A DNA stretch of 64,000 nt from Ereboglobus sp. PH5-10 (lineage in GTDB: Bacteria; Verrucomicrobiota; Verrucomicrobiia; Opitutales; Opitutaceae). The translations under genes and the position numbers were made by a program. The notes below the pieces were generated by a model. The model was not told the DNA's origin. It saw only the letters and a program-made list of their open reading frames with translations, and searched no databases. Position 1 is the stretch's first letter, and the number at the start of each line of letters is the position of its first letter. Below are positions 23,774 through 26,892 of this stretch, piece by piece. The stretch is taken from assembly GCF_029504735.1 (NCBI RefSeq), contig NZ_JAQFIP010000005.1, forward strand, positions 62,001-126,000. Reading direction: 5' to 3'.

Positions 23774-24535
23774 ATGACCCAGACCAATCTTCCATTCGTC
23801 ACGTATGTGATAAACCTGGACCGCTATCCGGAACGGTTTGAGACCATGTCGGAAGCGCTGAAACGGGAGCAAATCCCCTGTGAGCGCATCCAGGCCATTG
23901 ATGGGCGCACCCGTGTTTTTACCAAGGACGAAATCGACCTCAAGGCATACGAAAAAAACCACGGCAGGCCGCCGGGCATCGGCGTCGCCGCCTGCTACAT
24001 GAGTCACCTTTCGACCTACAAGGCGCTTCTGAACTCTTCGTATGAGTTCGCCCTGATATTCGAGGACGACATGCTCATCAACCCCGGACTCAGGCAACTG
24101 GTAATCGATTCCATCAAGATCAAGGACTCATGGGATGTGTTGCGGTTTGCGGGATTTCACTCTGGCTGTCCGGTGCGCCGGAAGATGATCAACGCCACCC
24201 ATTCAATGTGCTATAACTTCACATCAAGAACAGGCGGCGGTTGTTATATGATAAATAGAAAGGCGGCAAAAAGTTACCTGGAAAAGATGCTGCCCATCAC
24301 TGTGCATATCGACCATGAATACCCCAAGTCGTGGAAATACAATCTTCGCATATTTTCCATTTACCCCGCCCCGTGCGTCGATGCCGGATTGCCGACATCC
24401 ATTGAATACGCGGCCGCTAAAAAACTAAAAAGGCCGTGGTATAAAAAATTTCCCACCTTGTTTTACAGGGCGAGAATCGCCACGCGCCAAATCTGGCACG
24501 GCATCAGCCACGGTTACTGTTTTCCAAGGAAATAA
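23774..24535 (+). CDS. Glycosyltransferase family 25, second copy
   Basis: 253 aa, ATG 23774. It begins TNLPFVTYVINLDRYPERFETM, the GT25 opening, and has GIGVAACYMSHLSTYKALL, the acidic IFEDDMLINPG site and GGCYMINRKAAKSYLEKMLP. It is a distant paralogue of the GT25 at 20752; similarity is confined to these motifs, so it is not a recent duplicate. It is the last gene of the glycosyltransferase run; no terminator is apparent before the ilv leader 60 bp on. Confidence 0.87.
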   Translation: MTQTNLPFVTYVINLDRYPERFETMSEALKREQIPCERIQAIDGRTRVFTKDEIDLKAYEKNHGRPPGIGVAACYMSHLSTYKALLNSSYEFALIFEDDMLINPGLRQLVIDSIKIKDSWDVLRFAGFHSGCPVRRKMINATHSMCYNFTSRTGGGCYMINRKAAKSYLEKMLPITVHIDHEYPKSWKYNLRIFSIYPAPCVDAGLPTSIEYAAAKKLKRPWYKKFPTLFYRARIATRQIWHGISHGYCFPRK

Positions 24536-24593
24536 ACCCAAGCTCGCGCTTGACAACACGCCAACCAGGCGCATCTCTCAACCACGTTCACCA

Positions 24594-24689
24594 ATGACTC
24601 CCTTCGCCAACAACGCTCTCGCCAATCTCGTCGCCCTCGTGGTCGTCGTAGTAGTCGTGCGTTGCGCACGCCGAGAGGGCCGTTGGTAA
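24594..24689 (+). CDS. ilvBN leader peptide, valine-rich (IvbL-like)
   Basis: A 31-aa ORF, MTPFANNALANLV followed by A-L and then seven consecutive valine codons (24639-24659), ending in a basic tail and TAA. Eight of 31 codons are valine and three are leucine. The run uses GTG, GTC and GTA, so stalling would respond to general charged-valine supply. It sits upstream of ilvB and just before a strong terminator, like E. coli ivbL upstream of ilvBN. No separate function is expected for the peptide itself. It is too short for ordinary gene calling. Confidence 0.85.
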   Translation: MTPFANNALANLVALVVVVVVVRCARREGRW

Positions 24690-24703
24690 ACACAACCACT
24701 TTT

Positions 24704-24740
24704 GCCCCCTCTGGCGTGATCGCCGGAGGGGGCTTTTTTT
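24704..24740 (+). terminator. Intrinsic terminator of the ilv attenuator
   Basis: A 13-bp stem from G24704 to G24716 paired with C24721 to C24733, containing one G-U pair. The loop is TGAT, and seven T residues follow immediately (24734-24740). It lies between the leader peptide and ilvB, so it would stop transcription before the structural genes unless antitermination occurs. It is the strongest class of intrinsic terminator in the window. Confidence 0.92.
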
Positions 24741-24789: not shown

Positions 24790-26529
24790 ATGAAACCAAG
24801 CACACCGCTCACCACCATGACCAAAAAGAAATACACAGGCGCCACGCTCCTGACCGCGTTGCTGGAACGCCAGGAAATCCGCCAAATGCCCGGCATCCCC
24901 GGCGGCGCAATTCTGCCGTTCTACGACGCGCTCCACACAAGCCCCATCCGGCATATTCTCGCCCGCCACGAGCAGGGCGCCGGCTTCATTGCGCAGGGAA
25001 TGGCGCGCGTCACCGGCCGCGCCGCGACCTGCGTCGCCACTTCCGGCCCCGGCGCCACCAACCTCATCACCGCCATCGCCGACGCGCGCCTCGACTCGAT
25101 TCCGCTCGTCGCCATCACCGGCCAGGTCGCGCAATCGCTCATTGGCACCGACGCCTTTCAGGAAGTCGATTTCTACGGGCTCACCGTCCCCATAACAAAA
25201 CACAATTACCTCGTGCGCAACGTCCGCGAACTTCTCCACATCGTCCCCGAGGCGTTCACACTCGCCGAATCAGGGCGTCCCGGCCCCGTCGTGATCGACG
25301 TTCCCAAGGATGTGCAAACCGCTTCCATCGAACTCTCCGATGACGAGCTCCCCGCGCCCGGCGGATGCCGCCCCACCCCGCCGGCAAAGGACGCCGAAAT
25401 CGACGCGCTCGCGCGCATGCTCGCCAAGGCGCAACGGCCCGTGCTTTACCTCGGCGGCGGCATCATCGCGGCCAATGCCTCCGAACCCGCGCACGAACTC
25501 GCCAAACGCCTCGCCTCGCCCGTCGTCAGCACGCTCAACGCCCTCGGCGCAATCCCCGCCGCCAGCCCGCACCACATGGGCATGCTCGGCATGCACGGCA
25601 CGCGCGCCACCCACACACTCCTTGATGAATGCGACCTGCTCATCGCCATCGGCGCGCGTTTCGACGACCGCGCCACGGGCAAAGTCGCCGAGTTTTGCCC
25701 GCGCGCCGCCATCGCGCACATTGACATCGACCGCGCCGAGTTCGGCAAAATCAAGCGCCCGCACCTCTCCATCGAGGCCGACGCCGCCGACGTCCTCCAC
25801 CGCCTGCTCAACCACTCCGTCTTTCACTCTTCACCAGCCATCATTAACAATTCCAAATGGCTCGCCCGCGCCACCGCGCTCCGCGACGCGCATCCGCTCC
25901 GCCATCCCTCGCGCGAAACCGCGCCGTTGCATCCGGTGAACATTTGCCGGTTCCTCGCAAAAACGCTTCCGGGCGATGCGATCATCGCAACCGACGTCGG
26001 CCAGCATCAAATGTGGGTTGCGCAAGCCTACCCTTTCCGCTCGCCGCGCACGCTGCTCACCTCCGGCGGACTCGGCACGATGGGCTTTGGCCTGCCAACC
26101 GCCATCGGCGCGGCCTTTGCCGCCCCCGGAAAACGCATCGCCTGCGTCAGCGGCGACGGCTCGCTGCTCATGAACATTCAGGAGCTTGCCACGCTCGCCG
26201 ACCACAACCTGCCCGTTGCCGTTCTTGTTTTTAACAACGCCCACCTCGGCCTCGTGCGCCAGCAGCAGGAGCTTTTTTACGGGCGCCGTTACGAGGCGTC
26301 GCGCTTTGAGACCACGCCCGATTTCGCCGCGCTCGCGCGCGCCTTTGGCATTCGAGGGCACAGCATCGCCGCCAACTCAGCCGATCCGCTTGGCGACATC
26401 GCCGCCGCGCTCGCCCAGCCCGGCCCCTGCCTGGTCGACATCCCGGTCATCGCCACCGAAAACGTGCTTCCCATGGTTCCTCCCGGCGCTGCCAACAACC
26501 AGTCGATCGAGCACGCCGGGGCAATGTAA
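24790..26529 (+). CDS. ilvB: Acetolactate synthase large (catalytic) subunit
   Basis: 579 aa from ATG 24790, or 570 aa from ATG 24817 (MTKKKYTGATLL); neither start has a clear ribosome binding site. ThDP enzyme joining two pyruvates, or pyruvate and 2-oxobutyrate, for valine, leucine and isoleucine synthesis. The activating glutamate is E61 in ARHEQGAGF. SGPGATN, the FAD-region GMLGMHGTRATH, and the ThDP motif GDGSLLMNIQELATLADHNLPVAVLVFNN are all present. With the short ilvN and the valine leader upstream, the locus mirrors the enterobacterial ilvBN operon. Confidence 0.96.
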   Translation: MKPSTPLTTMTKKKYTGATLLTALLERQEIRQMPGIPGGAILPFYDALHTSPIRHILARHEQGAGFIAQGMARVTGRAATCVATSGPGATNLITAIADARLDSIPLVAITGQVAQSLIGTDAFQEVDFYGLTVPITKHNYLVRNVRELLHIVPEAFTLAESGRPGPVVIDVPKDVQTASIELSDDELPAPGGCRPTPPAKDAEIDALARMLAKAQRPVLYLGGGIIAANASEPAHELAKRLASPVVSTLNALGAIPAASPHHMGMLGMHGTRATHTLLDECDLLIAIGARFDDRATGKVAEFCPRAAIAHIDIDRAEFGKIKRPHLSIEADAADVLHRLLNHSVFHSSPAIINNSKWLARATALRDAHPLRHPSRETAPLHPVNICRFLAKTLPGDAIIATDVGQHQMWVAQAYPFRSPRTLLTSGGLGTMGFGLPTAIGAAFAAPGKRIACVSGDGSLLMNIQELATLADHNLPVAVLVFNNAHLGLVRQQQELFYGRRYEASRFETTPDFAALARAFGIRGHSIAANSADPLGDIAAALAQPGPCLVDIPVIATENVLPMVPPGAANNQSIEHAGAM

Positions 26530-26598: not shown

Positions 26599-26892
26599 AT
26601 GAACACTTCCACCATCGAACAAACACACATCATCGACCTTCGCGTCCGCAATCATCCCGGAGTCATGTCGCACATCACAGGCCTCTTCGCTCGCCGCGCA
26701 TTCAACCTCGAGGCGATTCTTTGCGTGCCCGTCTCCGGAAACGACGAAAGCCGCATGCTTCTCCTAGTAAACGACACGCCCAAGCTCGAACAAATCGAGC
26801 GCCAGCTCGCCAAGCTCCACGACGTGCTCGCCGTGCGCCAGCGCATCGATCTGCCGTCCGATTATTTCGAGCGCCTTGGAAAAAGCATCTGA
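26599..26892 (+). CDS. ilvN: Acetolactate synthase small (regulatory) subunit
   Basis: 97 aa, one ACT domain only (IIDLRVRNHPGVMSHITGLFARRAFNLEAILC), the short type found in E. coli IlvN rather than the ~160-aa IlvH form. It binds valine for feedback inhibition and stimulates IlvB. It starts 69 bp after ilvB. The TGA stop is the first base pair group of a small hairpin (TGAGGC/GCCTCA, 26890-26905) with a poor T-tract, a possible weak terminator. Confidence 0.93.
   Translation: MNTSTIEQTHIIDLRVRNHPGVMSHITGLFARRAFNLEAILCVPVSGNDESRMLLLVNDTPKLEQIERQLAKLHDVLAVRQRIDLPSDYFERLGKSI

Follow-up and report, generated by a model that had tools for sequence, protein, structure and literature searches.

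A probable valine-responsive attenuator ahead of ilvBN in Ereboglobus (Verrucomicrobiota) and its relation to the E. coli ivbL leader

The leader ahead of ilvBN in Ereboglobus sp. PH5-10 is best explained as a ribosome-mediated transcription attenuator through which the supply of charged valyl-tRNA governs ilvBN, the leader and the enzyme genes together forming one inherited module related to ivbL-ilvBN of E. coli; we put the probability of this reading at roughly 0.87. It was recognized in a 64,000-nucleotide stretch of the genome, which as a whole is referred to here as the window. According to the proposed mechanism, RNA polymerase would start just 5' of a short leader open reading frame (ORF) and a ribosome would follow. 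When valyl-tRNA is short, the ribosome would stall within seven valine codons and leave segment 2 of the leader (24667-24679) free to pair with segment 3 (24707-24718) in the terminator's left arm and loop, and transcription would proceed into ilvBN. When valyl-tRNA is plentiful, a ribosome at the stop codon would cover segment 2, the terminator would form, and the transcript would end at about 24734-24740. Judging from the sequence, ilvBN is very probably turned down by this switch when valine is plentiful, and the arrangement most likely came with the genes, by inheritance or transfer, instead of arising anew in this lineage.

The elements described in the initial annotation were all recovered at the positions listed in Table 1: a 31-codon ORF with seven consecutive valine codons, a 13-bp terminator with seven T residues, an alternative partner for the left terminator arm at the end of the ORF (segments 2 and 3, which form an antiterminator helix of 12 bp with one bulge), and, by domain models, ilvB followed by a short ilvN. 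The terminator hairpin has a computed energy of -29.7 kcal/mol, and the leader RNA folds with a z of -4.1, none of 200 shuffles being equally good. The best model for ilvB is PRK08155, with an in-frame ATG at 24817 as an alternative start; that for ilvN is PRK08178 at 111.2 bits, which is below its cut-off of 128, while TIGR00119 scores 60.8 (cut-off 56.9). PRK08155 and PRK08178 are models for IlvB and IlvN proteins as found in E. coli, with which the IlvB tree agrees. A run of GTN codons is by itself common in this genome (12 overlapping matches in 3.58 Mb; 37 in the reversed control). The sole run inspected besides that of the leader, on contig C14, sits inside long overlapping frames and was not accepted as a leader. 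An Rfam search at the leader gave no family at threshold, and the nine weak matches at E up to 10 included none from ilv families.

Table 1. Positions of the leader elements and the operon genes within the window.
Feature	Positions	Strand	Details
Probable promoter -35 box of the leader transcript	24550-24555	+	TTGACA; 38 nt from its end to the leader ATG
Leader peptide ORF	24594-24689	+	ATG start, 31 codons plus stop; peptide MTPFANNALANLVALVVVVVVVRCARREGRW
Seven consecutive Val codons, presumed regulatory	24639-24659	+	GTG GTC GTC GTA GTA GTC GTG
Segment 2, antiterminator 5' strand	24667-24679	+	CACGCC, bulged G at 24673, AGAGGG; inside the last ORF codons
Intrinsic terminator hairpin	24704-24733	+	GCCCCCTCTGGCG-TGAT-CGCCGGAGGGGGC; 13 bp, one G-T wobble, 4-nt loop
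Segment 3, antiterminator partner	24707-24718	+	CCCTCTGGCGTG; overlaps the terminator in its left arm and loop
Terminator T tract, seven T	24734-24740	+	TTTTTTT in the sequence
ilvB, acetolactate synthase large subunit, E. coli IlvB clade	24790-26529	+	TIGR00118 657.7 bits, cut-off 538.35
ilvN, short (97 aa) ACT-domain acetolactate synthase regulatory subunit	26599-26892	+	domain models

The arrangement is conserved among relatives. An IlvB search of 150 genomes of the family found 42 with a match at E up to 1e-150, and a search of 387 genomes of the phylum found 12 with a match at E up to 1e-165, of which six were known already and six were new; the new loci belong to five other families of the order (f2, f4, f5 twice, f6 and f9). 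A marker family of Verrucomicrobia was matched below its cut-off in 4 of 19 genomes, that of the window not among them, and in 0 of 14 controls. Upstream regions were scored with a detector, applied without a shuffle control, that asks for an ORF 10-60 codons long, no more than 330 nt from ilvB and with at least five Val in ten codons, and for a hairpin of 7 bp or more with T4 after it. Every one of the 44 order loci that could be assessed (38 from the 42 family matches plus the six new ones) had both the Val-rich short ORF and the terminator, and relatives that keep ilvBN in the absence of both were sought among these loci and not found. Outside this count stand two loci at contig ends (G086, G084), one whose upstream DNA was not included (G056), and one with another IlvB type (G011), which has 48% identity, branches apart from the enzyme clade described below and lacks a leader. 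The DNA on the upstream side of the window's locus matched none of the other order loci compared; several other genera share theirs. In one further genome (G004), where nothing matched IlvB at E up to 1e-150, a leader resembling an attenuator, its valine run interrupted (VSVVVAVV by eye), lies directly before a short ilvN (L050, 528-637, minus strand).

The initial annotation had considered both wide conservation and independent evolution of the leader. The tree of the enzyme favours shared descent. Among 126 IlvB rows, 63 that include E. coli IlvB form a clade with an SH-aLRT support of 99, and a Val ORF with a detected terminator precedes 59 of them (44 from the window's order and 15 of 18 others). 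The four that do not pass are a locus that is cut off (L036), one with a T-box (L069), one with a Val ORF and a hairpin but, by eye, no T tract (L074), and one with a terminator but four Val in ten codons (L076). In the other half of the tree, an ilvG-like group passes the detector in 6 of 14 rows, and the remaining loci do so in 0 of 49, one of which (L101) has only 40 nt upstream. A careful tree of 62 rows gives the enzyme clade a support of 100/99 and groups part of the window's order with Proteobacteria (99/96); the order as a single clade is rejected in this tree, in which long branches are present (AU p 0.00095). This split of the order may reflect transfer, or an old duplication with loss.

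The leaders themselves were compared with a covariance model, R1, built from 14 leaders of a second group of order members and containing no proteobacterial row. R1 finds 12 of 12 proteobacterial leaders at 35-56 bits, with rough E-values of 1.7e-6 to 1.3e-11, and 11 of the 12 score above every ilvG-like leader (20-37 bits; best E 6.4e-7). Terminators are nearly identical between the second group and Enterobacteriaceae. On sequence grounds, the leader itself thus appears clearly to be common to the second group and Proteobacteria. The window's leader, at 33 bits (E 5e-6), lies inside the ilvG-like range and is not separated from those leaders, and the model gives 31 bits to the Fibrobacterota, 32 to the Bacteroidota, 19 to the Myxococcota, and 18 and 15 to the Spirochaetota locus or loci, with one or two loci per phylum. 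For the leaders of the window and of these other phyla, it is the enzyme tree that would argue for common descent; here we infer the leader's own history, as well as the direction of any transfer.

These results bear on the possibility that each lineage built its own valine attenuator before ilvBN and that the likeness is convergence, which we regard as unlikely. Leaders rich in branched-chain amino acid (BCAA) codons do precede other enzyme clades, namely at ilvG-like loci and in Corynebacterium and Streptomyces, as described in the portions consulted of PMC1262725 and PMC10272879, and R1 places the window and the four phyla just named no higher than the ilvG-like leaders. However, the Val leader with its terminator tracks one enzyme clade whatever the phylum, a model without proteobacterial rows ranks nearly all proteobacterial leaders above the ilvG-like ones, and the terminators of the second group and Enterobacteriaceae hardly differ. 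Since the enzymes form one clade and R1 recovers all the proteobacterial leaders, independent evolution is not favoured, and the link to E. coli ivbL-ilvBN, at first drawn by analogy, has become more than that, even with the window's own leader unseparated from ilvG-like ones.

In the window's genome, R1 gave 15 matches at E up to 1, the top one being the window's leader; three further matches, the only others inspected, are not Val leaders. When applied to eleven ilvH/ilvC regions and the region of a second ilvB, the model gave 11 weak matches (best E 0.0033), and none that covered the whole model scored above 15.3 bits.

Shared descent opens a broader view, to which we incline on balance: the Val attenuator and ilvBN would be a self-contained regulated cassette, older than Enterobacteriaceae, that has moved between phyla as a unit, with E. 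coli ivbL as one late copy whose nearest relatives are those of Rhodocyclaceae and of part of the window's order. If this is true, the cassette would work at once in a new host, as it needs only ribosomes, valyl-tRNA and a promoter, and a T-box would have taken the place of its leader in a member of the Bacillota. Through the enzyme clade, the ivbL switch is tied to Val leaders in the window's order and at single loci of Fibrobacterota, Bacteroidota and Spirochaetota, and also to a Myxococcota locus, but one without a T tract. This points to operons being able to bring their own regulation with them from one phylum to another.

Several loci met during the search are worth recording. A plasmid of Pantoea sp. 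JZ29, typed as conjugative, carries, along with an ilvB of the clade, a short gene with an ACT domain and a leader rich in Val (L164, 1362-1512); this ilvB groups with Enterobacteriaceae (99/99), and the leader has a hairpin without a T tract and was missed by R1. Two Klebsiella matches labelled as plasmid have as neighbours tisB with emrD or uhpA, look chromosomal and were excluded as evidence of mobility. In Breznakibacter xylanolyticus (Bacteroidota), two Val leaders lie in series before ilvB (L134, 1174-1314 and 1335-1471), and a separate terminator-like hairpin with T tract follows each of them (MTMHFFNNLLSVVVVVVSLRIIRRIVA, MNIHLSTIVLSVVVVVVCQPPQG), which amounts to a tandem attenuator. 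In Thermomonas, a BCAA-rich leader with a GTG start (MTALSAASALVLVLIIPPTSAGRSGV) and a terminator (L130, 340-483) lie upstream of a gene whose start, in our estimation, resembles ilvC.

Covariation between segment 2 and the terminator was assessed by a swap test, in which each leader's segment 2 was paired with the terminator arm and loop of every other leader and 20,000 permutations were made; it was used in place of per-column pair counting because the segment 2 bulge changes place in MAFFT alignments. Among the 28 leaders from the window's clade, native pairs reach -22.99 against -20.13 kcal/mol for swapped ones, and no permutation was as good. The second clade of the order (16 leaders) gave -20.00 against -15.98 kcal/mol, again with none as good, and the Proteobacteria (12 leaders) -21.47 against -20.18 kcal/mol, with two as good. 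Five smaller sets had 0, 0, 0, 52 and 0 permutations as good, with natives above the median swap in 10/16 (the one-per-genus subset of the window's clade), 12/15, 9/9, 3/7 (the reduced proteobacterial set) and 29/30 (one row per genus over all groups), relatedness being only partly removed in these sets. In a weaker test, where segment 2 was shuffled and paired with the terminator arm without its loop, p 0.05 was passed by 22 of 28 leaders in the window's clade, 2 of 16 in the second clade and 0 of 12 in Proteobacteria; for the window's own segment 2, 0 of 200 shuffles were as good. In L021, a C-to-T change in the left terminator arm, where a wobble remains, is accompanied by a G-to-A change in the antiterminator strand, and in the window's subgroup that T is matched by an A at the next position and the bulge has shifted. 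The leaders thus appear to maintain, through covariation, an antiterminator that is mutually exclusive with the terminator. A conserved protector hairpin 1:2, as in the textbook scheme, is not supported in the window's clade, where 4,448 of 20,000 swap permutations were as good (8,631 in Proteobacteria); such support as the sequences suggest comes from the second clade, with 6.

The effect of a ribosome was modelled by masked folding, with an assumed footprint from 15 nt before to 12 nt after the first base of the A-site codon and with polymerase at 24722. Stalls at Val1 to Val6 leave 10-12 antiterminator pairs, a stall at Val7 leaves 4.1, and a ribosome at the stop codon leaves 0.0; in the absence of a ribosome, there are 11.6. 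In the complete leader RNA, each of the nine states examined contained the terminator; the switch must therefore be kinetic, with timing as the deciding factor. As the antiterminator prevails at 24722 when no ribosome is present, an untranslated leader may fail to terminate. The simplest reading of the model would be that termination requires a ribosome that has arrived at the stop codon. Taken together, the masks, the swap test and the conservation at all assessable loci of the order strongly support the attenuator that the initial annotation had proposed, and the comparison of relatives that it suggested brought out a covarying alternative pairing as well as the ORF and terminator.

The same data must be weighed against the view that terminator and antiterminator alone matter, that the switching is done by some protein or small molecule or by translation in itself, and that the valine run is incidental, which seems to us very unlikely. 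The last ORF codons are constrained by RNA pairing, and, as noted, the antiterminator forms without a ribosome while polymerase is at 24722. Outside the valine run, the leader peptide is without a coding signature, as leader peptides may be: across eight pairs of close leaders, 20 changes are at codon position 1, 25 at position 2 and 27 at position 3. In Streptomyces coelicolor, alterations to the codons upstream of ilvB that are presumed to be regulatory were without effect, according to the part of PMC1262725 consulted. On the other hand, all 44 assessable order loci have at least five valines in ten codons in a peptide that otherwise varies widely, four leaders from the same genus keep all seven Val codons with one synonymous difference between two pairs, and valine is the product of the pathway to which the operon belongs. 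A count of changes at Val-Val codons was discarded as evidence, since such changes are necessarily synonymous.

Upstream of the leader, at a distance of 33-44 nt from the ATG, the window's clade has an exact TTGACA in 26 of its 28 leaders, and the motif with at most one mismatch occurs in 27 of 28, where shuffles expect 3.5. Conservation at this spacing does not extend to the second clade (7 of 16 leaders, 3.6 expected) or to Proteobacteria (5 of 12, 3.2 expected). No recognisable -10 box follows it in the leaders of the window's clade, and a Shine-Dalgarno-like motif is absent before the leader ATG in all 28. If TTGACA is a -35 box, the 5' stretch ahead of the ATG would be about 3-14 nt, assuming a 17-nt spacer. 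Among the 40 long ORFs of the window, with starts taken mechanically, Shine-Dalgarno-like motifs were seen at 5 of 40, compared with 4 of 40 in a shifted control. That the stretch merely terminates the glycosyltransferase gene that ends upstream on the same strand at 24535, with the ORF present by chance, can hardly be credited, given that Val ORF, antiterminator and TTGACA are conserved, that the first two are kept where the upstream gene differs, and that no relative was seen with a terminator after the same upstream gene but without the Val ORF.

The genome encodes a second IlvB, 45% identical (L153, G000:C3:129577-131307), whose upstream 350 nt contain no Val-rich leader by eye and no R1 match. 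In another region (L139, G000:C4:54000-61000), a 156-aa IlvH-like frame adjoins an IlvC-like frame. With a second IlvB and a long IlvH-like gene elsewhere, the attenuated ilvBN operon looks, from gene content, like an accessory enzyme.

Peptide-mediated attenuation is commonly presented in teaching as a feature of Proteobacteria. Control of ilv operons by leader-peptide attenuation is classical, as stated in the sections consulted of PMC11857589, PMC1262725 and PMC10272879, and a survey of 2010 described peptide-mediated attenuation, ermC apart, as known only in Proteobacteria and Actinobacteria and added a case from Firmicutes (PMC2965389, extract). In the literature available to us, partly as extracts, no paper was found that joins ilvB leader attenuation with Verrucomicrobia; a 2010 survey by Lopatovskaya and colleagues (cited in PMC4833913) could list such a case. 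Attenuation at ilvB has already been proposed for several lineages in the consulted part of PMC10272879: the Corynebacterium ilvB-II, ilvB-OMG and Leptospira ilvB motifs have BCAA-rich upstream ORFs ahead of ilvB, and ilvB-OMG is said to occur in various bacterial phyla. These motifs are set beside the window's leader by description. The present work extends what is known to the window's order, connects its leaders with ivbL by way of the enzyme clade, adds evidence that the antiterminator covaries, and casts doubt on the protector hairpin.

Three known systems allow a closer comparison. Loci of the ilvGMEDA (ilvL) type, L092, L100 and L113 among them, likewise have a leader with BCAA codons and a terminator before an acetolactate synthase large subunit, but the codons are mixed Ile/Val/Leu and the enzyme belongs to a separate clade. 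T-boxes sense charged tRNA. One of them (Rfam 136.7 bits) stands at the Fusibacter paucivorans locus (Bacillota; L069, 1179-1403), where no Val leader was detected, although its enzyme is of the same clade as the window's. The regulation of E. coli ivbL-ilvBN is known from experiments. The E. coli locus compared here is L068, the name ivbL occurring in a plasmid-collection record; its leader has no Rfam match, and the present alignment could seed a family. Unlike ivbL, the window has a valine run uninterrupted by Arg, a terminator of the CCCCCTCTGGCG type, an antiterminator with a one-base bulge, and TTGACA 38 nt ahead of an ATG that lacks a Shine-Dalgarno motif. The two nevertheless share a leader peptide with a valine run, a terminator, a short ilvN and the same enzyme clade, and the antiterminator strand reads GCGCCG-TAGGG in E. 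coli and GCGCCG-CGAGGG in much of the window's clade.
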